From assembly GCA_027452205.1 (NCBI GenBank), contig DAIDGV010000018.1, positions 1-61,961 of the forward strand: a stretch of 61,961 nucleotides of DNA, read 5' to 3'. The first letter of the stretch is position 1, and the number at the start of each line of letters is the position of its first letter. Positions 21,333 through 49,157 of this stretch are shown here, one piece after another. Source of the DNA: a candidate division FCPU426 bacterium. GTDB taxonomy: Bacteria; Oederibacteriota; Muellerivitia; Muellerivitales; Muellerivitaceae. The position numbers and the translations under genes are program-made. Below the pieces are notes generated by a model. It was not told where the DNA came from, did no database searches, and was given only the letters and a program-made list of their open reading frames with translations.

Positions 21333-22421
21333 TTAGATATTAAAGAAAAACTCAGGGATACCCACGATGTACTTCAGATTGAACACCCACCGAAGCACCA
21401 TCTTGATGGGCAGCGCAGCCATCAACAGCATCAGGAACATCAAAACGCCATAGCGGACCACGCCTAATTTTTCAAGAAGCTCCTGCAGCACAGGGACCTT
21501 CTTGGTCAGAAGCGGCGGCAGGCCGATCAGGTAGAAACCAATGACCAGGAAGCCCCAGATCTCCCGGAGGAACCAATTGGTCGGTAAACCAATGCCCAAG
21601 ATACGGACCCAAACATACTCGGAAAGGTTCACGTTGTTGAGCACAACCACCTTATGCGGGTCCCAGTTCTCGTAGGGACCAAAGAAGTTCCAGCCCGGGC
21701 CACGCATGAAGGTGCCCAGGAAGATCAAGGTAACCCAGAGAATGAAGAACCCGAAGAGGAACGGCACGATAGCGAAAGGCCGTTCGTTGAAGGTGTAATA
21801 GCCTGAACCCTTTGGATTCTTGTCGATATAAGGAATGGCCATCAGACCGATGATGATGAGCGTGGGGAAAACCACCCCGGCCAGCCAGGGATCGTAATAG
21901 ACGAGCATTTCTTGAAGGCCCAGGAAGTACCAAGGAGCCTTGGAAGGGTTCGGCGTCCAGGCTGGCGTCGCGGCTTCTTCCAGCGGCGCATGCAGGCAAA
22001 GGGACCAGATCAGCAACACCACGCCGCCGATGATGGTGGCGATGAACTCGATATAGACCAAATCCGGCCAGACATAGACTTTTTTATCGGAAGTTTCTTT
22101 TTCGACCGGAGGCTGTCCTTGGGCAATGCGGCGGTCATTCACCACTGCTTGGCGGAAAGACAACCAAGTGAAGAACCCCACGCCATAGACCATCAAGAAA
22201 ATAGGCACATTATCCGGCAAGGTGGCGATATCACGGAAATGAGTGCTATAGACCATCGAGAAAATGATGAATCCGATGGAGACCCAAAGGATCTTCACGG
22301 CAAAATCGGGTTCGGTCCACTTTTCCCGGTACTTGATCATGGCCCAAAAGCCGATCACGGAAAAAATAAAATAAGACCAAGGCTGAAGTACGAAATCGAT
22401 GGCATCAAGTATGTAATGCAT
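21333..22421 (-). CDS. Cytochrome b, C-terminal (subunit IV-like) subunit
   Basis: A 362-residue membrane protein with about eight or nine helices. The central part matches the C-terminal half of cytochrome b / b6f subunit IV: SKAPWYFLGLQEMLVYYDPW, then VVFPTLIIIGLMAIPYID and ERPFAIVPFLFGFFILWVT. The Qo-site PEWY motif of bc1 complexes appears as APWYF. It is longer than subunit IV (about 160 residues), with an extra three-helix N-terminal part before residue 130 and a C-terminal extension. It follows the cytochrome b6-like gene by 35 bases in the same operon. Confidence 0.9.
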   Translation of the reverse strand: MHYILDAIDFVLQPWSYFIFSVIGFWAMIKYREKWTEPDFAVKILWVSIGFIIFSMVYSTHFRDIATLPDNVPIFLMVYGVGFFTWLSFRQAVVNDRRIAQGQPPVEKETSDKKVYVWPDLVYIEFIATIIGGVVLLIWSLCLHAPLEEAATPAWTPNPSKAPWYFLGLQEMLVYYDPWLAGVVFPTLIIIGLMAIPYIDKNPKGSGYYTFNERPFAIVPFLFGFFILWVTLIFLGTFMRGPGWNFFGPYENWDPHKVVVLNNVNLSEYVWVRILGIGLPTNWFLREIWGFLVIGFYLIGLPPLLTKKVPVLQELLEKLGVVRYGVLMFLMLLMAALPIKMVLRWVFNLKYIVGIPEFFFNI

Positions 22422-22456
22422 GGTCCCTCAAATAACCTAAGTTTTTCCCTGGCCGA

Positions 22457-23287
22457 TCAGAGCGGGCCCGAGATACCGCCGTCCTTACGAACACGCCAAA
22501 AGTGAACGGCCATCAAAGTAGCCGCCACGATGGGCACGAACACACAATGCAACACGTAGAAACGAATGAGCGTCGCTTCCGAAACGAAATGGCCGCCAAG
22601 AAGGGCAAAGTGGATGTCGGATCCGCCGTGCACCAAATGCACCCCTCCGATCTGGATCATTGAGGCACCCGGACCTTCATAACCCATGAAAGGGGTGGCA
22701 CGGGCCATATTGGTGCCTACCGTGATGGCCCACATGGCTAATTGGTCCCAAGGCAAAAGGTAGCCGGTGAAGGACAAAAGAAGGGTCAAGACCAAGAGAA
22801 CAACACCAATGACCCAGTTGAATTCACGGGGCGGCTTATAGGAACCGGTCATGAATACACGGAACATATGGAGCCACACGGCGATGACCATGGCGTGGGC
22901 GCCCCAACGATGGATTTCGCGCATGATACCCAGAGGTACGTGTTCGCGAAGGGCCACGATGTCGTAATAAGCGTATTCCGCCGTCGGGCGGTAGTAGAAC
23001 ATCAACAAGATACCTGTCACGGTCAGGTTCAAGAACAGGAAAAACGAAAGCCCCCCCATGCACCAGGTATAGCTCATTTTCACGCCCGAATGACGGGCCT
23101 TGACCGGATGAAGATGCAAGAACACGTTGGAAAGGACCGCCATAACGCGATTACGCGGGGTATCTGGATAGCCGTGGCGAAAGATGGACTTCCAGATCTG
23201 GCCTTCAGCGATGTTCTGCTTGATGGCCTCAGGGGAGGGGGCATCGGCGAACTTTTCGGCGATCATTTTCTTCAATTTATCCAGCAT
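22457..23287 (-). CDS. Cytochrome b6-like subunit (N-terminal cytochrome b)
   Basis: A 276-residue four-helix di-haem protein. The two haem-ligand pairs are visible: [18 protein letters not shown] (His residues 14 apart) and [20 protein letters not shown] ending in a second His, with 14 residues between as in cytochrome b6 rather than 13 as in bc1. The Qi/Qo-facing [19 protein letters not shown] stretch is conserved. AAAGGATG precedes the start. It is the second gene of the Rieske operon. Confidence 0.95.
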
Positions 23288-23312
23288 GTCTCATCCTTTA
23301 ACGAAGTTGGGA

Positions 23313-24068
23313 TCAGCCTTTGTAATTCAAATAAGAGCCAGGGAGACCCCATTGGCCCAATTCATATTGGTACTTAATGCTCTGGTCGATCTGGATCTGA
23401 CCGTCATCGGCCAGGGTGATATTGAAGCGTTCTAAGGGCCGGGGAGCCGGACCTTCGAAATTGATACCGGTAATGTAGTAACCGCTGCCATGGCAAGGAC
23501 ATTTGAATTTTTGTTCGGCCTGTAGCCAGTTCGGGGTACAACCCAAATGGGTACAAATGGTGGAAAGAACATAGAAACCAGTGGCTTCACGAACAACCCA
23601 AACCCTATGGGACGATTTGAACCGTTCATCCACTCCAATTGCGTAGGTGTTGGGGAACCCCGCCGCGAACTTCAGCGGGGGTTCAAAGGTCACGTTGGGG
23701 AAAAGGAACCGAACAACACCGCTCACCGCGCCCAAAGAAGCGGCAGTAAAGGCCACCCAGGCCCAACCCAAAAGAGACAAGAAGGAACGCCGGTTGAGGG
23801 AGGGATCCATCGCGCCATGTTCGATCTCAGCTTCATGCGCGTGGACTTCTTTGGCTTCTTGATAGGAATGCCATAACCACTTGATCGTAAGGACTAGGAC
23901 ATAAACGCCTAAAGAAACAAGAGCGATGAAACCAAAATTGATGATAAGGGAGCTGAATTCAATGGAGGGATTGGCGTTCGTTTCCTGCGCGAAGGAAACC
24001 CCTTGGGTTAAAAAGACCGCTAAAGCAGTAGAAGGAAAACGATATCGTTTCGCACAACGAGGGTTCAT
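23313..24068 (-). CDS. Rieske iron-sulfur protein with extended membrane N-terminus
   Basis: The [2Fe-2S] subunit of the quinol-oxidising complex. Cluster ligands are complete: CTHLGC (about residues 172-177) and CPCHGS (190-195). Ahead of the Rieske domain lies a Tat-like RRSFLSLLGWAWV helix, and ahead of that an extra signal-like segment and a second hydrophobic helix (about 38-65) joined by a charged His/Glu linker. I choose ATG 24068 because GGAGC lies eight bases upstream and a signal-like sequence follows; the frame stays open further upstream without a good site. Starting at the later Met of MDPSLNRRSFL would give a normal Rieske N-terminus. First gene of the complex operon. Confidence 0.93.
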   Translation of the reverse strand: MNPRCAKRYRFPSTALAVFLTQGVSFAQETNANPSIEFSSLIINFGFIALVSLGVYVLVLTIKWLWHSYQEAKEVHAHEAEIEHGAMDPSLNRRSFLSLLGWAWVAFTAASLGAVSGVVRFLFPNVTFEPPLKFAAGFPNTYAIGVDERFKSSHRVWVVREATGFYVLSTICTHLGCTPNWLQAEQKFKCPCHGSGYYITGINFEGPAPRPLERFNITLADDGQIQIDQSIKYQYELGQWGLPGSYLNYKG

Positions 24069-24156
24069 GCAAATCGCTCCGGAAAGACACGAGATTTTAT
24101 CAGGACAAAAGTAGCGCTCCCCGAGAAGAGAGCGAACGATGCTGAAAACAGGCCGT

Positions 24157-24186
24157 ATTCTAGACAAAGGAACGGGAATGGGTCAA
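24157..24186 (-). promoter_or_regulatory. Sigma-70-type promoter for the Rieske/cytochrome b operon
   Basis: On the minus strand TTGACC and TAGAAT are separated by 18 bases, about 90 bases ahead of the Rieske start. It is the best sigma-70-like match I found in the window. Confidence 0.7.
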
Positions 24187-24265: not shown

Positions 24266-26863
24266 TCACTTTAAAACCAATACTTTTAAAACCGTCGAGA
24301 AAGTAGAGCCGCCTGTCACACGGATCCTCACATAATAAAGACCGTTCGCGACAGGTATACCCATCCGGTCATTCAAGTCCCAAAGTACCGTGGTAGTCAC
24401 ACCGCTCGGATTGTAGTCATGCTCCGAAACCTTGCGGAAAGCCGTGGTAAAGACCTCCATGTGGATGACACAAGGGCTGGGTGGCGTGATGACATCCACC
24501 TTTAAGGGCGCGCCTGTTACCGGGTTGGGATAGGGCTTCGAGCAGGTCACATGATCGACCGTGGTGGCCGTCGGAGTTTGGGTCACTGTCGCCGTGAAGG
24601 TGACTGTGGGGGTGTGAGTGACCGTGGCGGTCAAGGTCACCGTCGCGGTGCCGGTTTGGGTCGAAGTGACCGTTGCCGTTGACGTGGTGGTGGCGGTATT
24701 CACGGGAACCTTCGTGTTGGTCGAAGTATCCGTCGCTGTTTGGGTCGAAGAGGCCGTACTGGTAGGCGTAGAAGTTGATGTCGAAGTGGCTGACGCCGTA
24801 GAGGTCCGGGTTTGGGTGTTCGTGACCGTGGCGGTATTGGTATTCGTAGCGGTGTTCAAGACCCCGGTGGCGGTATTCGTGACCGTAGCGGTTTGAGTGG
24901 AGCTTTGGGTCATCGTCTGGGTCTGGGTAGCCGTATTGACCACCGGTACCGTGTTGGTAGAAGTTGCGGTATTCAATACACCTGTCGCCGTATTGGTTTG
25001 AGTATGGGTCACCGTGGAAGTGGACGTAAAGGTCGGGGTGTTCAACCCAGTGGTATTGGTGGCCGTGGAGCTGTTGGTCGCTGTTGCCGTATTCGCCAAG
25101 GGCGTTGAGGAATTCGTTGCGGTATAGGTTTCCGTGGCGGTATTTGACAAGGGGGTCGCCGAACTGGTGGCGGTCGCCGTATTGGCCAGGGGGGTGCTGG
25201 TCATGGTCGCCGTATGGGTTTGAGTAAAGGTCGAGGTTACCGCCACCGTGTTAGTGGAGGTCTCTGTCATCGTATTCGTTTGAGTGGCCGTATGGGTAGC
25301 CGTGGGAGGCGGAGGCGTCGAAGTAGACGTAGAGGTCTGGGTGCGGGTAACCGTGTTCGTGGTCGTCGCCGTAGGAGGCGGCGGGGTATTCGTGCTGGTC
25401 GAAGTCTGAGTACGGGTAACCGTATTGGTGGAAGTCGCCGTCGAGGGTGGGGGTGTGCTGGTATTCGTGGACGTCGCGGTGTTCGCGCTGCCGCTCAGGG
25501 GACAGGTCGATCCCCAGGTGTGGTTGTTCGAGATATGGGTCCTAAAGAATCCCCCGTCATCGTCCACCACCGGGCTACCGGTCCAACTGCCCGCGCCGCT
25601 GTTTCCGGACCCATCCTGTTGGGACGCGCTGCCGGTGTAGTTGGCCGGGTAAAAAAAATCCATCACATCGGTACAGTGATAATCACCAGGGCCCCATAGC
25701 ACTCCCATGCAACCACTGTTCACGTAAAGACAAATGTTGTGGCTGTACCCCGCCGTGTTCAGCGGTGAATCGTTCAAGAAATACTCGGGTCGGGTATCCG
25801 TGTAATGCCCCAGCACATTGTTCATTTTGGAATTGCCTTCTGGCACCTGCCACAACATGCACCGTAGGGAAACATCCGCTGTCAGGTCATTGAGCCAATT
25901 GGCATATTGCTGGGCCATGGCCCCGCCGGTGTCCCAATTATAGGTAGCTTGATAGCCGCCGTCATAACCCGAGGGATCGGTGAAAAATAGGTCCCAGGTG
26001 CTTCCGCTGGCAGGTTTACAAGCATTCAGGAAGGTCGCGATACTGCTGGCGTGGGCCGATAATGCCCCAGCGCTCATTCCACTAGTCGCCGCGGGATTCG
26101 GACTTACCGCCCAACCTGAAACGTGGAAGGCGATCTTTAAGTTCGCCCTGTTCCCTGCCGAAATTTCCTGGTCCTTCAAATAAAGCATCGCCTGGCAATA
26201 ACCCGCCAAGGTATTCGGAAAACTAGACAAGGAAACCCAAGGGCTAGAGCAGGAAGGTTGCGCCGCCGAGGCCACCGACACCGTATAGCTGCTGGGTGAA
26301 CCACCGCCCTGCTGGATGGTGCCGAACATATCGGGTTCAATATCGACGGTCACCACCTTACCCGAGTGGGCGTTCATCCAAGTATTGATCTGGATGAGGA
26401 ACTGTTCCCAATCCTGGTAATACTCGCCCATAAAGGACGTGCTGGTCATACTGCTGATATAGACCCCGCCGATCTGGTAATAGATGAAGATCGGTTGCAA
26501 TCCCGCCCCATTGGCCAAGTTAGCGAAATTGCCTACTGACCCGCCACTACCGGGATATTGGTTGTACCAACCCGATCCGGTGCAAGCTAATCCGCCTTCG
26601 AGGTAACGATAGACCGCGTCCCAGTTCGAGGCGCCTGTCGGCACCATGTATTGCGAAACGGTGTTCACTTCCGCGTTGACGCCGAGGCCATAACTATTGA
26701 GGGCGTCCTGATAATCATCGTCCACCAACCCCATCATGAAGGAAGACGGATAACCTGATGGAACAGTGCCTCCCATAGCCCACAAATGGTCCGCCGCCAA
26801 AGGAGTCAGTAAGATCAGCAGCAAAGAAAAGAAGTGGATTTTTTCGATTACGAAACGTTTCAA
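24266..26863 (-). CDS. Large secreted protein: glycosidase-like domain, Thr-rich linker, FlgD-like C-terminal domain
   Basis: An 865-residue exported protein. After a signal peptide (about 1-29) comes a domain of about 425 residues with alternating strand-like motifs IFIYYQIG, VVTVDIEPD (174-178 DIEPD), KIAFHVSGWAV, LFFTDPSGYDG and CMLWQVPEGNSKM, reminiscent of a TIM-barrel glycosidase, but I cannot name a GH family. Residues about 460-768 are a Thr/Asn/Ser/Ala-rich tract with units such as TNTATVTNT, probably a glycosylated spacer. The last 97 residues (KPYPNPVTGAPL ... GLYYVRIRVTGG ... KVLVLK) form a FlgD/T9SS-tail-like beta module. The start is TTG 26863 after GGAGACGAC. A full-length paralog lies at 30471-32906. 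Confidence 0.8.
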   Translation of the reverse strand: MKRFVIEKIHFFSLLLILLTPLAADHLWAMGGTVPSGYPSSFMMGLVDDDYQDALNSYGLGVNAEVNTVSQYMVPTGASNWDAVYRYLEGGLACTGSGWYNQYPGSGGSVGNFANLANGAGLQPIFIYYQIGGVYISSMTSTSFMGEYYQDWEQFLIQINTWMNAHSGKVVTVDIEPDMFGTIQQGGGSPSSYTVSVASAAQPSCSSPWVSLSSFPNTLAGYCQAMLYLKDQEISAGNRANLKIAFHVSGWAVSPNPAATSGMSAGALSAHASSIATFLNACKPASGSTWDLFFTDPSGYDGGYQATYNWDTGGAMAQQYANWLNDLTADVSLRCMLWQVPEGNSKMNNVLGHYTDTRPEYFLNDSPLNTAGYSHNICLYVNSGCMGVLWGPGDYHCTDVMDFFYPANYTGSASQQDGSGNSGAGSWTGSPVVDDDGGFFRTHISNNHTWGSTCPLSGSANTATSTNTSTPPPSTATSTNTVTRTQTSTSTNTPPPPTATTTNTVTRTQTSTSTSTPPPPTATHTATQTNTMTETSTNTVAVTSTFTQTHTATMTSTPLANTATATSSATPLSNTATETYTATNSSTPLANTATATNSSTATNTTGLNTPTFTSTSTVTHTQTNTATGVLNTATSTNTVPVVNTATQTQTMTQSSTQTATVTNTATGVLNTATNTNTATVTNTQTRTSTASATSTSTSTPTSTASSTQTATDTSTNTKVPVNTATTTSTATVTSTQTGTATVTLTATVTHTPTVTFTATVTQTPTATTVDHVTCSKPYPNPVTGAPLKVDVITPPSPCVIHMEVFTTAFRKVSEHDYNPSGVTTTVLWDLNDRMGIPVANGLYYVRIRVTGGSTFSTVLKVLVLK

Positions 26864-27129: not shown

Positions 27130-29556
27130 ATGATTCAACCGCCTCGATCTTCCCTCCTCGCCCTTTTTCTCGTCTCCGCGGCCGCCTTGGGGTTCGAGAT
27201 CCAGCTCACCCGCTATTTCGCCATCGCCAGTTGGTCCGAGTACGGTTATTGGATCATCTCTATCGTTATGGTGGGCTTATCCCTCAGTGGCGTGGCCCTC
27301 AGCTTGGCCAATCATTTTTTCCTCAAGCGGGGCGCCTTTTTGCTCGCGGTCATTCCCGGCGGCCTCATGCTCTCTGCCGCGCTGGGTTATTGGGCGGTTA
27401 CCCTTATTTCCTTCAATCCCTTGGAATTCCAAAATCATGAGCTGTGGCAAGGCCAATTGCTCTGCGTGGGCCAATACTATTTGGTCCTATTCCCTTTTTT
27501 CTTTTTGTCAGGGCTTTATATCGGTTTGAACTTCATTCTTTATCCCCGGTCCGTTGCCCAGGTCTATGCCTTCGATCTTTTAGGGGCCGCCGCGGGGTCT
27601 TTGGGCCTGATCTTGCTCATGTTCGTCCTTCACCCCTTTCAATTACTGCCGGCCCTCTTGCCTTTATTGCTGCTCGCCGGGTGGGTGGGTTCGCCCAAAT
27701 GTTCTTTTAAGATCCTGAGTCTCGCTCTCTTTTTGATCAGTGAAGGGAGCGCCTTTTATTTGAACCAAGCGGACTACTGCCAGTACAAGCCTATCTATCC
27801 GCCCCTGCACGTGGAAGGCACCCGGGTGTTGGAGGAACATTTCTCACCCCGGGGTTTGGACACGGTCTTGGATAACTTCACCGAACGTCTCGATATCGAC
27901 CTGTCCAACAATTACAGCCTGTTAAAGGTCAGCGGCCCGCCCGCCGCTTGTGGTCTTTACCGGGACGGAAATCGGCTGGAATCCCTTCCGAAGAACAACA
28001 CCCTTCCGGCCAATTACGCCAAAGCCTCCTTGGACATCCTGCCCTATTTTTTACGTCCGGGCGCCAAGACCTTGGTCATCGGCACCCGGGGTGGTTTCAA
28101 GGTCCCGGAAATTTTTTCCGTCGGGGTTTCCCAAGCCGTCGCCTTGGAATCCGACCCGGTCCTTTATCATTTCGTTTCCGACCCAACTCGTTATGGCGGG
28201 GCCTGGTTCAACCAGCCCGGGATGACCCTGCTGGACCAGAAACCCTTGCCTTATTTAAAAGGGACCGCCGAGACCTTCGACATCATTGATCTGTCGGCGG
28301 AATTCCTCGACCAGGGCCAAACCAACCGCTTGGCCTTTACCCAGCAGGCCTTGCAAGAGGACTTCCGCCACCTGAAACCCGGCGGCATGCTTTCGATCCC
28401 CTCTTCCATCCGGGAACTTACGGTCTATGCCTTGAAGACCCTGGAAAGCGCCAGGGAAGCCTTGACCAACTTGGGCGTTTCCCGTCCCGAGGACCATCTT
28501 CTTTTATATCGGTCCGCCTGGAGCACTCGGCTCTTGGTCTTCAAGGACCCCCTGACCCCCTTGGACCTCAAAAAGATCCAGGCTTTCTGTTCCGACCGGT
28601 CTTTCGATATCTCCTATTACTCGACCCTTCGACCGGGCAAGCAGGAAATTTGGAACGAGATCCCGCCGATGTCCTTTGATGGCCCTTCGAAACATTCCCG
28701 TTCCCAAGAAACTCAAGATGCCCTAAGGGACGACTGCTTAAAGTTGTTCTCCGACCCCTCTTTCAAGGGCAGTTATTTTTTCAATCTGGCCCCTTCAACC
28801 TACGACCGGCCTTTCTTTTATTCGGTGCTGCGGCTTTCTCGTTTGAAAGACCTTTGGCGACAGCTGTCCCTGATCCCCCGGGAAGAGATCGGTTACCTGG
28901 TCAATCTGGCGGTCTTGGTCCAGTCCCTTTTGTTCTCCGCGCTCATCCTATTGTTGCCCTGGTTCTTCCTCTCCCGCGCTGACGCCAAACCCCGGGGCGT
29001 CCGATTCCTGCTTTATTTCCCCGCCTTGGGCCTGGGATTCCTCTTTATAGAGATCTATCTGATCGAAAAAGCCTCGTTCCTTTTGGGGGACCAGACCCTG
29101 GCTTTTTCCGGCGTGCTGGGCGGCATGCTGTTCTTTTCCGGCTTGGGCAGTTGGTTCTCGGGGCGCTATCAGAAACCCGCTCAAGCTCTGCGGCTGGCGA
29201 TGGGGCTGGCCTTGGCTTGGTTCCTTTCGGCCTGGTTCTTCATCGATCCCCTCTTCGCCATCCTTTTGCCCTGGAGCACCCCGGTCAAATGCTTATTGCT
29301 CTTGGTCCTTCTCGCGCCGCTCTCTTTCGCGCTCGGCATGCCTTTCGCTTTGGGATTGAGCTCCTTGGAAAAAAAGAATACCGCCTTGTTACCCTGGGCC
29401 TGGGCCCTCAACGGGGCCTTTTCCGTGATCGCCACACCTTTGGCCAACATCCTGGCGGTGTCCGGTGGTTTTAGTCGTTTGCTCTGGGGCGGTCTGTTAC
29501 TATACGTTATCGTTTGGCTGACATTCCCACAGCATCCCGAAAAAGGCAGCGCATGA
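27130..29556 (+). CDS. Spermidine-synthase-like polytopic membrane protein
   Basis: An 808-residue protein with three parts: about six membrane helices, a soluble Rossmann-like domain, and about six more helices. The soluble part has KTLVIGTRGGFKVPEIFS, an acidic residue at the end of the next strand (AVALESD) and FDIIDLSAEF, the order seen in spermidine synthases and related methyltransferases, though the Gly-rich loop is degenerate. This layout matches the known group of fused membrane spermidine-synthase-like proteins, whose reactions are mostly unknown. I start at ATG 27130; the frame is open further upstream but that part is non-coding in style. Its stop overlaps the start of the exported isoaspartate methyltransferase gene (ATGA). 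Confidence 0.8.
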   Translation: MIQPPRSSLLALFLVSAAALGFEIQLTRYFAIASWSEYGYWIISIVMVGLSLSGVALSLANHFFLKRGAFLLAVIPGGLMLSAALGYWAVTLISFNPLEFQNHELWQGQLLCVGQYYLVLFPFFFLSGLYIGLNFILYPRSVAQVYAFDLLGAAAGSLGLILLMFVLHPFQLLPALLPLLLLAGWVGSPKCSFKILSLALFLISEGSAFYLNQADYCQYKPIYPPLHVEGTRVLEEHFSPRGLDTVLDNFTERLDIDLSNNYSLLKVSGPPAACGLYRDGNRLESLPKNNTLPANYAKASLDILPYFLRPGAKTLVIGTRGGFKVPEIFSVGVSQAVALESDPVLYHFVSDPTRYGGAWFNQPGMTLLDQKPLPYLKGTAETFDIIDLSAEFLDQGQTNRLAFTQQALQEDFRHLKPGGMLSIPSSIRELTVYALKTLESAREALTNLGVSRPEDHLLLYRSAWSTRLLVFKDPLTPLDLKKIQAFCSDRSFDISYYSTLRPGKQEIWNEIPPMSFDGPSKHSRSQETQDALRDDCLKLFSDPSFKGSYFFNLAPSTYDRPFFYSVLRLSRLKDLWRQLSLIPREEIGYLVNLAVLVQSLLFSALILLLPWFFLSRADAKPRGVRFLLYFPALGLGFLFIEIYLIEKASFLLGDQTLAFSGVLGGMLFFSGLGSWFSGRYQKPAQALRLAMGLALAWFLSAWFFIDPLFAILLPWSTPVKCLLLLVLLAPLSFALGMPFALGLSSLEKKNTALLPWAWALNGAFSVIATPLANILAVSGGFSRLLWGGLLLYVIVWLTFPQHPEKGSA

Positions 29557-30467
29557 AGTTCGGTTTTTACACGATCCTTTTCCTCGGTCTTATCCATTTC
29601 GCCCTAGCGAACCCAACTCCCGTTCCCAGTCCCACTTCCACGCCCCTGGTATGGAACTTCAAGGCCTATCTTTCCACCTTTAAAGCCGGCGGCCGCCGGA
29701 CCCAATTGACCCAAAAGAAGTTCGACCATGTCGTCGAGAAGCGCCTTGCCGCCATGGACAATTTGAAGGGCTACATGATGGACCGCGCGGGTGAGATGAA
29801 CCCCGACATCTTCAAGGCCTTTTGTGACGTGCCCCGGGAATATTTTCACTACGATTACCAAAAAAAGATGGCCTTCTCGGCCAGCGCTTATGACTGGCCC
29901 GCCCGGCCCTGGGCCATCGGTTATGGTTCCGCCCTAAGCGATTATCCCGGCCAGATCTATATGATCCAATTGGCCGAGCCCGAACCCACCGACACGGTCC
30001 TGGAGATCGGCACCGGCAGCGGTTACAACATCGCCTTGCTCTCGCGCTTGGTGAAAGAGGCTTATTCCATCGAGATCATCAAGCCCTTGGGCAACCAGGT
30101 CGCGAAGATCTTCAAACCCCTCGGCTTCAACAATATTCACACCAAGGTGGGTGACGGTTATTACGGGTGGGACAGCGTGAAGGGCGGGTTCGATATCATC
30201 GTCGTCACTTGCGCGGCCCAATTCGTGCCGCCCGCTTTGTTGCAACAGTTGAAGCCCCATGGCCGCATGATCATCCCCATCGGCCAGCCTTTCCGGGGCC
30301 AGCAGGTGCTTTATGTTTATACGAAGGATTCCCAGGGCAAGGTCCATTGCCGTAAGGATGTCGGGGTATTCTTCATTCCCATGACAGGCCAGATGCAAAA
30401 AGAATCGCCCATCGCCTCTCCCGGGCCCATGCCCACGATCGAATCCGCCAAAGAATCCGACCAGTAG
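29553..30467 (+). CDS. Exported protein-L-isoaspartate O-methyltransferase-like protein
   Basis: A 304-residue protein with an N-terminal signal peptide (MKFGFYTILFLGLIHFALA) and a Pro/Thr linker before the PCMT fold. Family features: the region SALSDYPGQIYMIQL corresponding to the TIS-P motif, SAM-binding motif I VLEIGTGSGYNIALLS, FDIIVVTCAA and LKPHGRMIIPIG. PCMT enzymes methylate isoaspartyl residues in aged proteins using SAM. Export is odd because SAM is not expected outside the cytoplasm. The ATG overlaps the stop of the membrane protein gene, so the two are co-translated and probably work together. Confidence 0.85.
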   Translation: MKFGFYTILFLGLIHFALANPTPVPSPTSTPLVWNFKAYLSTFKAGGRRTQLTQKKFDHVVEKRLAAMDNLKGYMMDRAGEMNPDIFKAFCDVPREYFHYDYQKKMAFSASAYDWPARPWAIGYGSALSDYPGQIYMIQLAEPEPTDTVLEIGTGSGYNIALLSRLVKEAYSIEIIKPLGNQVAKIFKPLGFNNIHTKVGDGYYGWDSVKGGFDIIVVTCAAQFVPPALLQQLKPHGRMIIPIGQPFRGQQVLYVYTKDSQGKVHCRKDVGVFFIPMTGQMQKESPIASPGPMPTIESAKESDQ

Positions 30468-30470
30468 CCT

Positions 30471-32906
30471 TCAACGCCGTATGAAAATGACCCGGGCCAA
30501 GACCCGCCGGGTCGGCCCCGTCATATAGATCACATAGACCCCCGAAGCGCAAATGGCGTTATATCGGTTCCTTCCATCCCAGCTATAGGTCTGCGCAAAA
30601 GCCTCCGTTAAGTCCTTATGGTCCAATTTTTTCACCAATTCTCCCGCTGAATTATAAATGCTCAGGTCATAGCCGCCTGGATAACGGTCGATGGCCACCG
30701 AGATCGAGACCGGCGAATCGTTCGAAAAAACGTTCTGGGAGACGAAGAACCGTTCGGGACCCACCGTCGGGGTAAAGGTGAACGTAAACGGCATCGTGGA
30801 AGTGCCTGTCAGGGTCGGGCTGGCGGTGGCCGTCCAGGTCGCGGTCGAAACCACAAAAACAGGGGTCCGGGTATTCGTCGCGGTTCCTGTGGGCACACTG
30901 GTCGATGTTCCTGTCGCCGTCGCAACCCCGGTGGAACTACTGGTCGCCGTAGCGGTCAAGGTGGCCGTCAAACTCGCCGTCGAGGTCGATAAGCCGGTGC
31001 TGGTCGAGGTGGACGAAGCGGTCATTGTCGCGGTCACAGCCAAGGTTGAGGAGGAAGTCTCGGTCAGCGTTGGCGTATTGGTGATGACCTTCGTGACTGT
31101 ATTTGTCTCGGTGGCAGTACTGGTACCGGTAGCGCTGGATGAAGCGGTTGCCGTTAGCGTAGTGGTGGAGCTAGAAGTCGCTGTGTCCGCTAGGGTATTC
31201 GTCGAAGTATTGGTCATCGAACAAGTGGGTGTCGAGGTTGGGCTCTGGGTGGCGGTTTGAGTCGCGGTGTTGGTCGTGGTATTCGTGGCCGTATTCGTCG
31301 GGGTTTGGGTCGAGCTGTTCGTGACGGTCTTGGTATTGGTGACAGAAGAGGTGCTGGTATTGGTGGCGCTGGCGGTCGGGCTGTTGGTCACTGTGGAAGT
31401 AGCGCTGTTCGTGACCGTGTAAGTCACCGTATTGGTAGCCGTACTGGTCCCGGTAGCCGTAGCGGTGTTGGTCGCTCCGCATTGGGAAGCCCACAAATGG
31501 GCATTGGCCGCGTGGCTTCGCATGAACCCGCCGTCGTTATCGATGACCGCCGGGACCGTCCAGCTGCCGGAACCCCCGTTGGCCGTGCCGTCCTCGGTCC
31601 AGGAACTATAGAGCATATCTTCCACGCTGGTACTGCTGGTGATGCTCCCTGCGCCCCAAAGGATGCCGATGATGCCCGAGGCCATGTATTGGCAAACGTT
31701 ATGAGCGTAACCCTGGTCGTTCAGCGGCGAGTCCGCTAAGAAATACTCAGGTCTCTCGTCCTTATAGTGCCCATTCACATCGGCCATTTTGGAATTACCC
31801 AAGGGCATCTGCCACAAGATGCCCCGCAAGTTCGTCAGCGTGGAAAGTTGGTTCACGAAATAAGCGTATTGGTCGGCGATCCCCACCACCCCGCCCACAC
31901 CCCAGTCATAAACATTCGGCGGTCCCCCTACCACCGGGTTATGCCCGTCATAACCGGAGGGGTCCGTGAAGAAAAGGTCGAACTGGCTGCCTGTGGCCGG
32001 CTGGCAAGCGTTCACAAAACTAGAGATCGTCTGCGCCCGGGCCGCCACCGTGGCCAGCGGATAGGGGTAACCGGTATTGGCCGCCGGGTTGCCATTGACC
32101 GCCCAGTTGGAGATATGAAAAGCGATATGGACCCGGCTGTTATTGGCCGGTGATACGACCTGGTCCTTGATATGGAGTACCGCCGCGCAATAGCCCTGGA
32201 AGTTATTGGCGTAACCCGTCAGGGGCACCCAAGCCGGACAACCCGGCGCCGCCAGGGCCGGCGAAGGTACCGTACAGTTAGCCACGTTCATGGGGAAAAG
32301 GGTCGGTCCGAAGCCGGGATAAATATTGCTTTGCTCGACCGAACCCGAAAAATCCGGCTCCAGGTCCACTGTCACCACCGGCGTATAACCCGCGGTGGCA
32401 TTGGCGGTCATCCACTGGTCGATCAGGTACATGGTATAGGTCCAGTCCTGATAATAAAGGCCCATCCCCACCGGGTCGTTCGGTGAAGTGCCTCCCTCGC
32501 CCAAGGCCTCGTTGCCGATCTGGTAATAGATGAAGACCGGTTCATAGTTGTATTGTTTGCAAAGGTCCGCGTGATGTTTGAGTACATAACCCGCGCCCAA
32601 GGGCGAGTTGGACCAGCCGTTGCCGCCGGTCGTGCCGCCGGAGTAATAACCCGCGTTCAAGTAACGATAGGACATATCGAAAGCGCTGCCGCCCACCGGC
32701 CCTTCCCAAGTGTTCAAGGTATAGACCTGGGCGTTGATACCGTAACCATACTCGTTGTTCACGTCTGGAAAATAATTGGACACCATGCCCATCAAGAAGG
32801 TGTTTGGGTAACCATTGGGCACCACACCGCCCATGGCCCAAAGATCGATTTTAGGTGAGATCAAAAGAAATAAAAAAATGAGGGCGAAGGAAACGAAACT
32901 CTTCAA
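30471..32906 (-). CDS. Large secreted protein, paralog of the 24266-26863 product
   Basis: An 811-residue protein with the same plan: signal peptide (about 1-25), N-terminal domain with shared motifs NGYPNTFLMGMV, FIYYQIGNE, VVTVDLEPD (181-185 DLEPD), HIAFHISNWAV, LFFTDPSGYDG and ILWQMPLGNSKM, a Thr/Ser/Ala-rich linker (about 480-714), then a 97-residue beta module (YDLSIYNSAGELVKKL ... SGVYVIYMTG ... RVIFIRR). The DxEPD pair is the best candidate active-site acid region. The start is TTG. It converges with the isoaspartate methyltransferase gene with a three-base gap. Function unknown; extracellular carbohydrate or cell-surface work is the likeliest. Confidence 0.8.
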   Translation of the reverse strand: MKSFVSFALIFLFLLISPKIDLWAMGGVVPNGYPNTFLMGMVSNYFPDVNNEYGYGINAQVYTLNTWEGPVGGSAFDMSYRYLNAGYYSGGTTGGNGWSNSPLGAGYVLKHHADLCKQYNYEPVFIYYQIGNEALGEGGTSPNDPVGMGLYYQDWTYTMYLIDQWMTANATAGYTPVVTVDLEPDFSGSVEQSNIYPGFGPTLFPMNVANCTVPSPALAAPGCPAWVPLTGYANNFQGYCAAVLHIKDQVVSPANNSRVHIAFHISNWAVNGNPAANTGYPYPLATVAARAQTISSFVNACQPATGSQFDLFFTDPSGYDGHNPVVGGPPNVYDWGVGGVVGIADQYAYFVNQLSTLTNLRGILWQMPLGNSKMADVNGHYKDERPEYFLADSPLNDQGYAHNVCQYMASGIIGILWGAGSITSSTSVEDMLYSSWTEDGTANGGSGSWTVPAVIDNDGGFMRSHAANAHLWASQCGATNTATATGTSTATNTVTYTVTNSATSTVTNSPTASATNTSTSSVTNTKTVTNSSTQTPTNTATNTTTNTATQTATQSPTSTPTCSMTNTSTNTLADTATSSSTTTLTATASSSATGTSTATETNTVTKVITNTPTLTETSSSTLAVTATMTASSTSTSTGLSTSTASLTATLTATATSSSTGVATATGTSTSVPTGTATNTRTPVFVVSTATWTATASPTLTGTSTMPFTFTFTPTVGPERFFVSQNVFSNDSPVSISVAIDRYPGGYDLSIYNSAGELVKKLDHKDLTEAFAQTYSWDGRNRYNAICASGVYVIYMTGPTRRVLARVIFIRR

Positions 32907-39428: not shown

Positions 39429-42104
39429 TTAACGGATGCTCGCCGGAGCGGGGCCCGGGGCCGCGTGAGCGGCTTTGGAGGCCCGTTTCTTTTTACCACC
39501 CATCAGGTCCTGATACAACGCCTGGTCCTCGGCGGTCAATTGGGCCGAGGGCGAAGGTAGCTGATAAGGCCCATAATCGGGCGTTTGGGTGAAGAGGGAG
39601 AACATGGGCGCCGCGGTGCCGTCATTAAAATTCAGCGGGTCCAGGCTCAACAACATCTCGATGGTGCGCAGCATGCCCAGTTGGTCATAGAGATCGCTCA
39701 CCACCTCGCCGCGCTTCACGAAGGGTCCCGCCACCAGGGCGATAGACCGCATAGCGTCCACATGATCCGGCCCGTTCTGGGAATCGTCCTCGATGACGAA
39801 GACCAGGCTTTGCTTCCAGATGGGGCTCTTCGCGATGGTGTCGATCACCGCGCCCACCGCCGCGTCGTTCTGCGCCATGAACTGATAAGGGTTCAGTGTC
39901 TTGTCCGAAGTGCCGGCCGTGTGGTCGTTCGGCAACCAGAGATACTGGAAGTTGAAGACCTTCTTGGCTCTTAATTGCCGTTCGAAATCTTTCTTCCAGG
40001 CCGCCGCCCGCTTCAGGTCCGAATAGCTTAGGTCCCAGCCCAAAAAGTCGAAAGCATAGCGGTATAAAAGATCCGCCCATTGCTCGGCAAAGGCTTTGTC
40101 ACCGCGGATCGCCACCGCCAAACTGTCGTCGCCTGAATAAAAATTGGAGAGCTTCGCCAAGAAAACCGGGTCAGCCAACAGTTTCCGGCAATGGTCTAGG
40201 CTGTCGTTCTGGCCCAGATTCTCTTGGACCAGGTCGGTGAAAGCGGTGTCCCGCCGCTTGTCCTTGGAGAAATACATCAGCTGGTTATAGCATTTGTTGG
40301 CCATCTCGCTGTTAGCGCCGAATTTTTGGACCATCAGACGGTAGGGCTTGGTATAGACATAAACATCCTCGCCATAGATCCGGTAATCGACGTTCTTGGC
40401 GTCCATGGCGTCCCATAAATAAGAGGGAGAAAAGGTAAAAGGCGCGGTGCCGAAAGGCCAAAAATCCTCGTTCTTGGCCGGGTTCTTGGCGTCCTTGGCA
40501 CCCAGCCGTCCGGAGTAATCGTCCATGCCCAGCCATTCCAGGAAGGGGCTTACGTAAGCGCTGGTGGTGTAGCTGTGGCCTAACACGCTGATCTCGCCAT
40601 CGACATAGAAATTATCGAGTGTCACGAATTGCTCGGCCAGGGCATGGTGGTTCGGGGTGATGTCCTTGCCAAAGATCGTGAGGCTGGGGTCCCCGTTGCC
40701 CTTGCCCAGATCGCCCAGCACCTGGTCATAGGTGCGGTTCTCTTTCACGATGTAGAAGATGTATTTGACCGGCAGGTCGAATCCGTTCGCGGAGCTGTAA
40801 AGAGGTGAGCTGTTCTGTACCTGTTCGGTCCAAGTCGGCAGTTGGTCCTTGATCTTGACGATGTCCAGCGCGCCTAGGCTGCCCTTGAGCAAGGTCAGCA
40901 CATAACCCGGTTCTTCCCGTTTTTTGGTGGGTTGGGGGCCGTTCGGGTTAGGTCGTCGTTCATGGATGCCTTTGGCGCTGAGGATGAATAGCTTATCCCG
41001 GTCCGTCATCACCTCCGTGGGATACCAGCCTGTCGGGATATAACCGGCCACCGTGCCATCCACCCGGTCCACTACCGCCACCGCGTTCAAACGCGACAGG
41101 CTGACATAAAGCTGGTGGTTGGGGCCCAAGGCCGCGGCCGTCGGCGCCGCGCCGAACTTGAAACTTTTCTGGCCCAGGTTCCAGGTGTCCGTCAGGGCCA
41201 GAGATTTGGTATCGATCACCGATATTTCGTCGCTGTTCTGGTCCACCACATAAAGCAGGTGAGCGTCCTTATCCACCGCGAAAGCGCTTGGGGTCTTGCC
41301 TACCGGGATATCCTTCACCCATTTCAACTTACCGCCGTCCATTTGAAAGACCGACACCAGGTCATCCTGGGCGCAACTAACAAAAACTTGGTTCTCCAAA
41401 CTTTCCACCGCGTAAGGGATATGGCCGCAGTCCACTTCCTGTTCCACCTTGCCGCTTTGGGTATTCAACAAGGCCAGCTTGCCCTTGTTGGCATAGCCCC
41501 CCTGGCCATTATCGACCAACAGGTAAGCCGCCACTAACCGGTCCCCATTGACCGGGGCGATACCGGCCACAAAACCATTTAGGTTGTAGGTCTTGGTGTT
41601 CTCGAAAGAGTGGTTATAGCGGTGGATGGTCTGGTCATAACCGCCGCTCACGTAAAGGTCCCCGTCTTGGCCCACCCGGGCGCTGGGAAAAAGCGATTGG
41701 ACCAGCAAGGTCTTTTCGACCTTGGTCCCTTCTTGGTTACAAACGGAGATCTCCGGTTTGGTCTCCACGTAATAGCCGTTATTGAGCACCACCAGCTTGC
41801 CCGCGAAGGGCACCACCACCATGGGATAGCGGCCCAGTTCCAATTGGCTCCCCGCCGGGGCCATCCGCCAACCCGTGGGCAGGGTCGCTTCCATGGGCAG
41901 CTTGGCTTTGGAAAGGACCTGCTTTTCTTCCACGGCCTGTTGGGCCTTGGCGTCATATTCGGTGTTCTTGGCAAAGCGCCACAACTGTTGGTTCAGTTTT
42001 TGTTCCTGGCCCGGTACGTCAAGGCCCGGCACGTCATCGGGGTCGGCCCAGGCCGGATAGGTACCGAGGAGCAAAAAAAGCGCAAAAAGAACCTGAGCGA
42101 TCAT
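39429..42104 (-). CDS. Exported bifunctional YncE-like / alkaline phosphatase-like protein
   Basis: An 891-residue exported protein. After a signal peptide (MIAQVLFALFLLLGTYPAWA) comes a beta-propeller-like half with YncE-type repeats (KTPSAFAVDKDAHLLYVVDQ, EISVIDTKSLALTDTW, YIPTGWYPTEVMT), then a phosphoesterase half beginning VKYIFYIVKENRTYDQVLGD, with YLWLPNDHTAG and SLVFVIEDDSQNGPDHVDA, the metal-binding pattern of the phosphoesterase/alkaline phosphatase superfamily. Proteins of this fused type are known in databases but not characterised in detail. ATG 42104 follows GGAGG. A phosphate-scavenging or phospholipase-like role is inferred. Confidence 0.87.
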   Translation of the reverse strand: MIAQVLFALFLLLGTYPAWADPDDVPGLDVPGQEQKLNQQLWRFAKNTEYDAKAQQAVEEKQVLSKAKLPMEATLPTGWRMAPAGSQLELGRYPMVVVPFAGKLVVLNNGYYVETKPEISVCNQEGTKVEKTLLVQSLFPSARVGQDGDLYVSGGYDQTIHRYNHSFENTKTYNLNGFVAGIAPVNGDRLVAAYLLVDNGQGGYANKGKLALLNTQSGKVEQEVDCGHIPYAVESLENQVFVSCAQDDLVSVFQMDGGKLKWVKDIPVGKTPSAFAVDKDAHLLYVVDQNSDEISVIDTKSLALTDTWNLGQKSFKFGAAPTAAALGPNHQLYVSLSRLNAVAVVDRVDGTVAGYIPTGWYPTEVMTDRDKLFILSAKGIHERRPNPNGPQPTKKREEPGYVLTLLKGSLGALDIVKIKDQLPTWTEQVQNSSPLYSSANGFDLPVKYIFYIVKENRTYDQVLGDLGKGNGDPSLTIFGKDITPNHHALAEQFVTLDNFYVDGEISVLGHSYTTSAYVSPFLEWLGMDDYSGRLGAKDAKNPAKNEDFWPFGTAPFTFSPSYLWDAMDAKNVDYRIYGEDVYVYTKPYRLMVQKFGANSEMANKCYNQLMYFSKDKRRDTAFTDLVQENLGQNDSLDHCRKLLADPVFLAKLSNFYSGDDSLAVAIRGDKAFAEQWADLLYRYAFDFLGWDLSYSDLKRAAAWKKDFERQLRAKKVFNFQYLWLPNDHTAGTSDKTLNPYQFMAQNDAAVGAVIDTIAKSPIWKQSLVFVIEDDSQNGPDHVDAMRSIALVAGPFVKRGEVVSDLYDQLGMLRTIEMLLSLDPLNFNDGTAAPMFSLFTQTPDYGPYQLPSPSAQLTAEDQALYQDLMGGKKKRASKAAHAAPGPAPASIR

Positions 42105-42177
42105 GGGAACCTCCAAAAGGAAAATGAGTTTCATTGTGGGCGTGAAAGCCGGGGTATTTTGTAAAAAGGATGTGAAA

Positions 42178-42399
42178 TCAGGCCAGAGGCGTCGTGAATC
42201 CCACGTGTTTGGGCGGTTTCGGCCACAAAGCGATCTCCTCGGCCCTCCAAGTCACCCTTTCCGCCCCTTCCCGGTCAGGCTGCACCTCATAGAGCAGGAC
42301 CTTCTCACCACTGGCAGTGGTCACTTCTTGGGCGAATTCGAACATCGCGAATTCCCCTGTTCTCACATTCACGACCCGGTCGCTTCGATTGAATTCCAT
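42178..42399 (-). CDS. Small conserved-looking protein, unknown
   Basis: A 73-residue acidic protein (MEFNRSDRVVNVRTGEFAMF ... VLLYEVQPDREGAERVTW). No signal or membrane helix. It has a good ribosome site (AAAGGAGAAACC) and ends in KHVGFTTPLA. It stands alone between the YncE/phosphatase gene and the flavoprotein. Its beta-strand pattern suggests a small barrel, but no family was recognised. Confidence 0.6.
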   Translation of the reverse strand: MEFNRSDRVVNVRTGEFAMFEFAQEVTTASGEKVLLYEVQPDREGAERVTWRAEEIALWPKPPKHVGFTTPLA

Positions 42400-42531
42400 G
42401 GTTTCTCCTTTCCAACAGCATGGAATTAATTTAGAAACCTATCGGGAAAAAAGGAAAGACCCACGGTCATATTGGAGGGACTTTTTCAGCATCCTGCTAG
42501 AATCCTAGGGTCTTTTAACCACGAGGTAAAA

Positions 42532-43716
42532 ATGGACTCTTTCGACGTCATCATTCTGGGGGCGGGGGCAGCGGGGCTTTTTTGCGCCGCCGAAACCGCC
42601 GCCCGGGGCCGCAAAGTGCTGGTGTTGGAGAACAATTCCAGGCCCGGGCCCAAGATCCTCGTTTCCGGGGGCGGGCGGTGCAATTTCACCAATATGCACG
42701 CCAAACCGGAGGATTATGTCACGACCAACCCCGCCTTCGTGCCCTATGCCCTGTCCCAGTTCAAACCCAAGGACTTCATCGAGATCGTGAAGGCCAAGGG
42801 TATTCCCTTTCACGAGAAGAAAGACGGCCAGTTGTTCTGCGACAAAAGCGCCAAGTCCATTTTGGACCTGCTCCTGTCTCGGGCCGAAGAACGGGGCGTG
42901 ATCTTATTGAAGGAACAAGAGACCCAAGAGGTTTCGCGGAACGGGGGTCTTTTTCATGTCCGGACCCAGACGGCCAGCTATAGCGCCTCCAAGCTGGTGG
43001 TCGCGACCGGCGGGCTTTCCTGGCCCCAGTTGGGTTCCAGTGACTTGGGTTTCCGCATCGCCAAGCAGTTTGGCCTCAACATCATCGAACCCGCGCCAGC
43101 CTTGGCGGGGCTTACCTTCCCGCCAGAGGAGATGGTCCGTTTCGACGGCCTGGCGGGCATTCACCTGAACGTCAGCGTTTCGATCGACAATTGGAAAATG
43201 CAGGAAGACATCATGATCACCCACAAAGGCCTCAGCGGTCCGGTCATGCTCAACGCGTCCTTGCACTGGCAACCGGGACAAGAGATCGTCATCAATTGGG
43301 TTCCTGAGCTCGATGTGGAAGAGACTTATCAAGGTTTGAAGAAAGAAAAGAACGGCGGCAAGGTCACTTTCAAACCTTGGCTTTCCGAGCGGCTTCCCCA
43401 GCGCTTGGCCGCCCGGTTGGCTTATCACGCCGGGGCCCGGGGCAACTGGGCTGAATTACCGGATGAAACCTTAAAGAAACTGGCCGAGACCCTGCATGCT
43501 TATCGCTTTGTTCCAGCGGATACCTTCGGTTACCGCATGGCTGAGGTCATGCGCGGCGGCGTGGACACCCGGGAGTTGTCGAGAAAAACCATGGAATGCA
43601 AGAAAGTCCCCGGGCTTTATTTCATCGGCGAGGTCATGGATGTAACGGGCAAATTGGGAGGTTTCAATTTCCAATGGGCATGGTCTTCCGCTTATACCGC
43701 CGCCCAGGCGCTTTAG
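42532..43716 (+). CDS. HI0933/BaiN-type FAD-dependent oxidoreductase
   Basis: A 394-residue flavoprotein with the FAD-binding Rossmann motif DVIILGAGAAGLFCA, KILVSGGGRCNFTN, LVVATGGLSWPQLGS and the C-terminal GEVMDVTGKLGGFNFQWAWS segment that complete the family. Members were named aminoacetone oxidase or 3-dehydro-bile-acid reductase; the true reaction is usually unknown. I start at ATG 42532 (GAGG upstream); the frame is open 60 bases further upstream without a site. Confidence 0.92.
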   Translation: MDSFDVIILGAGAAGLFCAAETAARGRKVLVLENNSRPGPKILVSGGGRCNFTNMHAKPEDYVTTNPAFVPYALSQFKPKDFIEIVKAKGIPFHEKKDGQLFCDKSAKSILDLLLSRAEERGVILLKEQETQEVSRNGGLFHVRTQTASYSASKLVVATGGLSWPQLGSSDLGFRIAKQFGLNIIEPAPALAGLTFPPEEMVRFDGLAGIHLNVSVSIDNWKMQEDIMITHKGLSGPVMLNASLHWQPGQEIVINWVPELDVEETYQGLKKEKNGGKVTFKPWLSERLPQRLAARLAYHAGARGNWAELPDETLKKLAETLHAYRFVPADTFGYRMAEVMRGGVDTRELSRKTMECKKVPGLYFIGEVMDVTGKLGGFNFQWAWSSAYTAAQAL

Positions 43717-43743
43717 TCCGGAAATTGCTTATAGACAAAGCAA

Positions 43744-43823
43744 CCGCCGATCAAAACGGATAAACGCCGATAAATCTTAATGATTCTCGTTTTTTATCCG
43801 CGTCCATCTGCGTTTATCGGCGG
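43744..43823. repeat. Imperfect inverted repeat with 10-bp internal periodicity
   Basis: Two 31-base arms (43744-43774 and 43793-43823), about 24 of 31 positions pairing, separated by 18 bases. The right arm itself is three 10-base units: TTTATCCGCG, TCCATCTGCG, TTTATCGGCG. It fills the gap between converging genes. Similar CGCCGATAAACG-type repeats are known from many environmental genomes. Confidence 0.7.
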
Positions 43824-43863
43824 CTAAATTGACTTTCGATATTTATTCTTTTAAAGACCAGCT

Positions 43864-44658
43864 TTACTTGCTGGCGTGTTCTTTCACAAACTCTTGCAGA
43901 GCCGCCAATCCTTCGGCCCCCGGCAGGGTGCCGCTATGGGACGAAGTAATGAACTCGATCTCTTTATAGCGCGGCTCCAATTCCTTGAGCAATTTGGCTA
44001 ACGAATCGATACCTTCTTGGGCATTGGTACTGAACAAATAGACCGGCCCACGGATCTTGTGGTTCTTGCCGATGCTAAAAGCGTCTCCCACAAAAAGCAC
44101 CCCATCCGCAAAATAGACTCCGCTGCCCGGCGTGTGACCCGGCACCGCGTAAGCGGTCACTTTCAATCCGTCCACATCGATGGTTTCTTGATCGCTCAAG
44201 GGGTTCGTTACTTTGAAGGGCATGGGATTGGTCTTAGCGAAGATGTTGGCCAAAGGACTGCCGTAGGGCTGGGTACCCGCGGCGACGCCGACCTCGTCCT
44301 TCATGGCGTAGACCTTGGCCTTTTTGAAGACATTCACCGCGCCCGTATGGTCCGTATGGGCGTGGGTAATGAAGATGGCTTCCACATCGTCCGCGGTCTT
44401 ACCGTGGGCCTTCAAGGCCGCCAGGATCGGCGCGCCTGTCGTGTCCAATCCCGCGTCGATCAACACCACCTTGCCGCCCTTTACCTCGAAATAATAGGTC
44501 GTCGCGATGCTGTCGGCGATCTGCTCGATGCCGTGGCCTAAGGCCGGCCCCGACCGGGGTTTTTGGTTGAGCCCGAAGATATAGAAGATGGTACCGCCGA
44601 TCAGCAGGCCAAAAAGAAGCACGAGCACACCGACAACTTTGAGGATGGTCTTGAGCAT
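43864..44658 (-). CDS. Membrane-anchored MBL-fold metallo-hydrolase
   Basis: A 264-residue metallo-beta-lactamase-fold protein with an N-terminal hydrophobic anchor (VVGVLVLLFGLLIGGTIFYIF). Metal ligands: THAHTDH motif, His in VPGHTPGSG, Asp in LFVGDAFS and a final His in SSHSGTLPG. The long family covers many hydrolases; substrate cannot be assigned. AAGGAG precedes ATG. It is a single-gene unit following the terminator at 44718. Confidence 0.9.
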   Translation of the reverse strand: MLKTILKVVGVLVLLFGLLIGGTIFYIFGLNQKPRSGPALGHGIEQIADSIATTYYFEVKGGKVVLIDAGLDTTGAPILAALKAHGKTADDVEAIFITHAHTDHTGAVNVFKKAKVYAMKDEVGVAAGTQPYGSPLANIFAKTNPMPFKVTNPLSDQETIDVDGLKVTAYAVPGHTPGSGVYFADGVLFVGDAFSIGKNHKIRGPVYLFSTNAQEGIDSLAKLLKELEPRYKEIEFITSSHSGTLPGAEGLAALQEFVKEHASK

Positions 44659-44717
44659 GAAAAACTCCTTCGATGATATGAAGACGGAGGAAAGTTTAAG
44701 GGAAGGGGCGCCAATAA

Positions 44718-44750
44718 AAAAGCCCCGTCCGGAAATCCCGGCGGGGCTTA
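44718..44750 (-). terminator. Intrinsic terminator after the outer membrane protein gene
   Basis: Stem of AAGCCCCG and CGGGGCTT extended by CCGG/CCGG with a mismatch; on the minus strand it ends in six T. It lies 12 bases past the stop of the gene at 44762. Confidence 0.85.
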
Positions 44751-44761
44751 GACGCGAAAAA

Positions 44762-45898: not shown

Positions 45899-45901
45899 TT
45901 G

Positions 45902-46957: not shown

Positions 46958-47065
46958 CTTCGCCTCCAACACTAGTTGCTCATCCTTAAAAACGGAGAAC
47001 AAGAAAACCGAACGGATCAAATGCCAATAACTCTTCTTCAAAGCAACCGCTTCATTCTTTCCCAA

Positions 47066-48991: not shown

Positions 48992-49157
48992 ATGGTTGCC
49001 TCGAAAAGAACGGTCTTTGGATGTCGGAATGTTGTCCATAATGTATCGCAAAAACGTCTTCCTCCCCACGGAATAAAAGCTTTAATTTAGGCCATTTTTG
49101 GTGGATCTTGAAATAGGTTCAGGCTAGTGACGCCAAAAATAAGGCAACTGACAACTA

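Follow-up and report, generated by a model that had tools for sequence, protein, structure and literature searches.

Organization of the locus

We analysed a stretch of 61,961 nucleotides (the window; contig DAIDGV010000018.1 of assembly GCA_027452205.1) from a candidate division FCPU426 bacterium, in which two neighbouring genes encode a large membrane protein and an exported methyltransferase with the fold of the isoaspartate methyltransferases (PCMT). As judged by sequence comparison, the two genes are inherited together, and the methyltransferase carries an export signal, keeps its pocket for S-adenosylmethionine (SAM) and has a changed substrate loop. The membrane gene runs from an ATG at 27130 to a TGA at 29556 and the PCMT gene from an ATG at 29553 to a TAG at 30467; bases 29553-29556 serve as start of the latter and stop of the former, which is the ATGA overlap that the original prediction of a coupled pair had pointed out. 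The features of the locus are the following (TM, transmembrane; MFS, major facilitator superfamily; AF2, AlphaFold 2).

27130..29556, + strand: membrane protein gene, 808 amino acids, 7+7 predicted TM helices of an MFS-like body around a domain of spermidine-synthase fold
27145..27759, + strand: first seven predicted TM helices (residues 6-210), from the AF2 model and a positive-inside count
27760..28878, + strand: soluble domain (residues 211-583), spermidine-synthase fold, predicted extracytoplasmic
28081..28095, + strand: altered SAM-binding glycine motif GTRGG (residues 318-322)
28879..29520, + strand: last seven predicted TM helices (residues 584-797)
29553..30467, + strand: gene of the exported PCMT-fold methyltransferase, 304 amino acids
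29553..29556, + strand: ATGA start/stop overlap of the membrane gene and the PCMT gene
29553..29609, + strand: Sec-type signal peptide, PCMT residues 1-19 (ALA site before N)
29919..29963, + strand: remodelled substrate loop GYGSALSDYPGQIYM (residues 123-137), in which the canonical GxGQTISQPYIVA is replaced
30003..30023, + strand: intact SAM motif EIGTGSG (residues 151-157)

Linkage of the two genes across genomes

An alignment of the membrane protein, without the PCMT, was used to scan named genomes, and the best 80 matches were kept; the resulting 79 loci consequently lean to the window type. They come mainly from Alphaproteobacteria, and also from candidate division FCPU426, Hydrogenedentota, Muproteobacteria, Spirochaetaceae and Desulfovibrio. 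A PCMT gene adjoins the membrane gene in 67 of these 79 listed loci (63 downstream, 4 upstream), and 9 loci stop at a contig edge. Where the PCMT lies downstream, the start/stop offset of the window is found again in 22 of 63 loci. Linkage elsewhere had been set beforehand as a test on which the original prediction should stand or fall, and the pair came through it, being adjacent in 67 of the 70 testable listed loci and in all 5 genomes with the membrane gene among 7 other genomes of the same family. The two genomes of that family without the membrane gene (G004, G005) also lack the PCMT type of the window. In the three listed loci where the genes are not adjacent (L104, L120, L154), a PCMT with the same loop lies elsewhere in the genome. 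Among the 9 contig-edge genomes, such a PCMT is present in 5; the match in G393 is strong but split and its loop could not be read, and in G389, G390 and G394 other PCMT types alone were found.

We also drew 150 genomes evenly from one order, using thresholds of E<=1e-60 for the PCMT and E<=1e-30 for an exported alpha/beta hydrolase that often accompanies the pair. The PCMT, the membrane protein and the hydrolase each occurred in the same 20 genomes, and none of the three was found in the other 130 at these thresholds (Fisher 2.8e-25, uncorrected for kinship). The PCMT and membrane genes are adjacent in 19 of the 20; in the remaining genome, G385, they share a contig at a distance of 13 kb. 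A homologue of the membrane protein is present in 23 of the 117 genomes that were selected as relatives; a further Fisher table (17/12/6/82), likewise uncorrected for kinship, was counted by hand and is exploratory. A chance neighbourhood of the window genome is ruled out by these linkage and co-occurrence counts.

More distant homologues of the membrane protein were followed over 40 entries, a part of the ranked list, and had an adjacent PCMT in 13 of the first 20 and in none of the next 20. Eleven of these 13 distant pairs form a second class with the canonical substrate loop (one of them a variant, VTISGP), and L171 and L172 are of the window type. A leader was seen by eye in 12 of the 13 PCMTs, the printed stretch of L171 ending short of the start.

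The hydrolase is a third gene that the sequence of the window could not have revealed. Comparison of neighbours places it upstream of the membrane gene in 55 of the 79 listed loci; it is missing despite sufficient room in 18, and there is no room for it in 6. Of the 55 copies, 54 share the strand of the membrane open frame and stop at most 300 bases ahead of it; the export rule described below passes 44 of the 54. It stands beside the membrane gene in all 20 pair-bearing genomes of the order just mentioned. The 48 aligned copies share a WSLG nucleophile motif, an Asp and GHALF, and the Pfam and NCBIfam profiles identify the general fold, with lactonase, BioH and other families far below their cut-offs. 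In the family of the window the gene is a tandem fusion in four genomes (G001, G002, G006, G007) and a piece at a contig end in G003; L080 5742-7952 serves as an example of the hydrolase, and the fusions of the FCPU426 relatives consist of two domains in tandem with a proline-rich linker. No conserved fourth gene was retained, the other clusters of neighbours being antisense or frame-shadow frames or confined to 6 to 18 loci.

Export signals of the methyltransferase

The PCMT of the window begins with MKFGFYTILFLGLIHFALA, followed by NP: a lysine, a 12-residue stretch with a mean hydropathy of 2.48 and an ALA site. In the AF2 model pLDDT is low over residues 1-30, as one expects of a leader, and the signal peptide originally read from the sequence is borne out. 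Export calls were made with a rule of our own on charge, hydropathy, twin arginine and lipobox, rather than with SignalP. By this rule 64 of the 67 adjacent PCMTs carry an export signal (41 of the twin-arginine translocation (Tat) type, 9 Tat with a lipobox, 14 Sec), and the three that fail it (L084, L112, L148) have Sec-like leaders by eye; the leader is thus kept in the orthologs, as had been anticipated. In a control, the same rule passed 55 of the 628 other open frames of the loci, shadows included, considering the first start alone, whereas the count of 64 tries all starts near the stop of the membrane gene. With a stricter rule at a fixed start, 45 of the 67 lie above a hydropathy of 1.8. 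Leaders across the relatives rule out that the one in the window is a start-codon artefact of a single sequence.

In a survey of 91 distinct PCMTs, mostly from the genomes of relatives, 27 have a leader and 64 have none; the membrane gene adjoins 7 of the 27 and none of the 64. Many of the stand-alone exported PCMTs have a lipobox and the canonical QTISQP loop (for example L004, L010, L013, L015, L017, L018, L227 and L229).

One might suppose that the leader is an anchor, and that the methyltransferase is tethered to the membrane or held at an export site while working on the cytoplasmic side, in which case SAM would not be needed outside the cytoplasm. The N-termini of G071, L125 and L134 could indeed be uncleaved anchors. 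However, 50 of the 67 leaders are of the twin-arginine type (nine with a lipobox) and clear Sec leaders are seen in others, a leader-first topology places the enzyme outside, and the SAM-fold domain of the partner is likewise predicted there. Tat leaders direct export in the folded state. We regard a cytoplasmic site of action as very improbable.

A changed substrate loop

Residues 83-281 of the PCMT match PF01135 with 133.9 bits for a cut-off of 20.3, and the best 16 fold matches of the AF2 model (pLDDT 84.8) are PCMTs or PCMT-like chains. The enzyme resembles E. coli Pcm (3lbf) in fold (TM-score 0.90 by target), in the SAM motif and in sequence (34%); it differs in its export signal, in extra N-terminal helices before the core, in having SALSDYxGQ instead of QTISQP, and in its fixed membrane partner. 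We aligned 73 pair-type PCMTs with 24 comparison PCMTs, the latter from the 24 of 30 loci in which a motif search found one; the comparison PCMT of L026 is the same gene as the "linked" PCMT of G090, and in G067 the "linked" PCMT and the membrane gene are 10 kb apart. Both sets alike conserve the SAM motif EIGTGSG. At residues 126-134 the comparison set reads GQTISQPYIVA, with QTISQP in all 24 sequences, and the pair-type set reads GSALSDYxGQAYM or a near variant in 68 of 73 (SALSDYPGQ in the window); the canonical loop is kept by the other five (L156, L158, G062, G071, G090). In most pair-type PCMTs the PRHxFV motif has also become PREYFHYxY. The AF2 model is unsure exactly at the altered loop, with a mean pLDDT of 58 over residues 121-130.

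We take this loop to be the isoaspartyl-carboxylate binding site known from PCMT structures, and since it is altered, a changed substrate is likely. The PCMT of the window lacks the canonical isoaspartate-binding QTISQP, and the replacement by SALSDYxGQ makes isoaspartate repair by enzymes of this type doubtful. Isoaspartyl repair by classical PCMT activity, acting on proteins of the envelope and on secreted ones, would be in line with the original prediction, which had offered repair or modification of exported proteins; it would agree with the PCMT fold and SAM motif, with the second class of pairs, which keeps QTISQP and is likewise exported, and with the exported PCMT being the sole full one of the window genome, where two further matches are short and weak. 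Against it, a near-universal loop is replaced in 68 of the 73 pair-type PCMTs, and the window enzyme stays below the two NCBIfam isoaspartate equivalog cut-offs checked (PRK00312 and pimt; 156.6 of 188 and 116.6 of 159.05 bits). Neither does repair explain the hydrolase. The argument that secreted proteins here are rich in Asn-Gly also fails for the two that flank the pair (2 NG for 4.2 expected, and 5 for 4.9). We hold isoaspartyl repair to be unlikely, weakened as it is by the loop and by the Asn-Gly counts.

Some PCMTs of this kind have unusual arrangements. A pair-type PCMT of a Desulfovibrio metagenome-assembled genome (L149 10515-12752) lies within a 740-residue open frame with a long N-terminal extension, and a Reyranella locus (L091 10451-12419) has two tandem pair-type PCMTs after the membrane gene. 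A further non-classical use of the fold is the PCMT-like subunit of Paracoccus denitrificans complex I (PDB 8qby, chain t).

Fold and predicted topology of the membrane protein

The AlphaFold model of the membrane protein is confident (pLDDT 92.8, pTM 0.92) and predicts an MFS-like transporter body with an outward-facing domain of spermidine-synthase fold. Using VIA-align on the model (1-807), the membrane part matches SV2A with Z 25.4 over 347 residues and SLC45A4 with Z 16.4, and its predicted structure belongs to the MFS fold. The soluble part (residues 212-542) matches spermidine synthases with Z up to 19.4 (1uir, over residues 217-540) and has their fold, in agreement with a weak profile match to 1inl (E 1.6e-8). 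The description "spermidine-synthase-like" was thus right by fold, although the likeness is invisible to Pfam, which finds no family in the window protein at E<=0.01. Among 56 relatives of the membrane protein, 5 match PF01564 weakly and below its cut-off, and none matches the Pfam MFS profile at E<=0.01; at the same threshold neither the window protein nor any of the 56 members matches the profile (MFS_5) of GoSAMT, the Golgi SAM transporter. The cut-off of NF002956 is missed as well (20.6 of 472 bits, in the membrane part alone).

The orientation of the soluble domain was deduced from charge. Leaving out the N-terminal loop, the loops predicted inside hold 15.0 K+R per protein and those outside 3.4 in the window-type sequences (n=79), and the values for 8 more distant homologues are 17.5 and 2.6; this bias places residues 211-583 outside the cytoplasm. 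SV2A, an MFS protein with a large extracytoplasmic domain which we take to lie between TM7 and TM8, is alike in membrane fold and place of insertion. It differs in that the insert here is of a Rossmann-type methyltransferase fold, with 14 helices and no Pfam MFS match in the protein.

The soluble domain shares its fold with the spermidine synthases and polyamine aminopropyltransferases (SpeE; PRK03612); unlike them it is inserted in an MFS-like body and predicted extracytoplasmic, its glycine motif is altered, and the catalytic and adenine motifs are lost. We assume for these motifs the roles that they have in SpeE. Of the nucleoside site, G318, G321, G322 and E340 are conserved in over 95% of the 79 sequences, most of which have the glycine motif in the form GxxGG[FY]. 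The window-type sequences inspected have lost the D/E-G adenine motif and the catalytic loop (LLDS in the second class, DSSDP-type). With these motifs lost and the family cut-offs missed, we rejected the membrane protein as a maker of spermidine.

Alternatively, the membrane protein might handle the substrate instead of SAM: the MFS body would export a small molecule or a part of a polymer, and the outward domain would hold it for tailoring by the methyltransferase (and the hydrolase), SAM arriving otherwise. MFS carriers move many things, and SLC45A4, presumably a polyamine transporter, is among the fold matches of the membrane part. The outward domain of the window type has lost the contacts of spermidine synthases with SAM and decarboxylated SAM, a hydrolase lies in the same operon, and 12 of the 20 unlinked exported PCMTs of our survey occur in genomes without the membrane protein. 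However, the same kind of partner is kept with two loop classes (SALSDYxGQ and QTISQP) that have the SAM motif and the export signal in common, which is our main argument for the handling of SAM rather than of substrate, and the conservation of the four nucleoside-site residues points the same way. We therefore see a substrate carrier as a minority possibility, a little ahead of isoaspartyl repair.

Neighbouring genes of the window

The genes on either side of the pair (24266-26863 and 30471-32906) both lie on the opposite strand and both encode proteins with a hydrophobic leader at the N-terminus; the pair does sit between two secreted-protein genes, as first noted. These two proteins have Thr-rich TNTxT linkers in common, and their C-terminal parts are alike (31% over 333 aligned columns, mainly of low complexity). 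Beside the locus, 21333-24167 holds genes for cytochrome b, a cytochrome b C-terminal part and a Rieske protein. An excess of Asn-Gly is found in the window at 39429-49069 alone, well away from the pair (8 for 3.0 expected, 13 for 6.4 and 10 for 6.5).

Discussion

To our knowledge, SAM-dependent enzymes are assumed to act in the cytoplasm, where their SAM is found. We propose that the two genes may form an obligate module of the envelope that transfers methyl groups from SAM outside the cytoplasm, with the membrane protein delivering SAM, a proposal to which we give an even chance. The membrane protein would export SAM and perhaps return S-adenosylhomocysteine, its outward domain would take up or pass on the nucleoside, and the exported PCMT would form methyl esters on carboxylates of a substrate in the envelope. 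The exported serine hydrolase that most lineages have in the same operon would act on this ester, as a putative methylesterase, or otherwise on the same substrate. We infer the direction and cargo of transport, the binding of SAM outside and the hydrolysis of an ester. A supply or transport of SAM by the membrane protein, as the original prediction had it, is plausible in the light of the predicted MFS-like fold and outward SAM-fold domain.

Several observations weigh against the proposed SAM-delivering module. In our survey 20 of the 27 exported PCMTs are not beside the membrane gene, and the genomes of 12 of these 20 have no homologue of it at E<1e-20; an exported PCMT can therefore exist without a membrane partner, and this is the chief point against a general need for one. 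The adjacent PCMT is absent for 7 of the first 20 distant membrane homologues and for all of the next 20, which shows that the wider family has other jobs. Because the adenine and catalytic motifs are lost, the outward domain may not bind SAM. Finally, there is no hydrolase beside the pair of the window and no clear orthologue in its genome, which has a distant hydrolase elsewhere (E 3e-11).

According to PMC9946043, plant Golgi pectin is methylated with an MFS-type SAM transporter (GoSAMT), a lumenal carboxyl methyltransferase and a wall methylesterase. The system described there offers a works-like analogy of a SAM carrier, a carboxyl methyltransferase and an esterase past a membrane; we propose a likeness of GoSAMT to the membrane protein in function and claim none in sequence, SAM transport being conjectural here. 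More tentatively, the genes might form a dedicated extracytoplasmic methylation cycle in several phyla, a bacterial counterpart of plant Golgi and wall pectin methylation, with an MFS-based SAM exporter bearing an outward SAM-receptor domain, an exported carboxyl methyltransferase whose specificity is new, and a methylesterase, exported too and encoded in the same operon, removing the mark; we consider this fuller version rather less probable than SAM delivery alone. Our literature search returned no description of an exported, periplasmic or Tat-exported PCMT, of a membrane- or MFS-fused spermidine synthase, or of a periplasmic SAM methyltransferase, and the accessible parts of PMC8939145, PMC10450907 and PMC13097080 contain nothing on exported PCMTs. 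Each part comes from a known superfamily; the module is without description in the literature searched.

If the proposal of an envelope module is true, a methylation chemistry thought to be confined to the cytoplasm also runs in the bacterial envelope. The exported methyltransferase is widely conserved and comes with a membrane partner of its own, which makes the presence of SAM in the periplasm, and its route there, directly testable, and the pair occurs in culturable genera (Caulobacter, Brevundimonas, Neoroseomonas and Rhodopila). It would thus give a handle on carboxyl modifications of the bacterial envelope that are not yet known.

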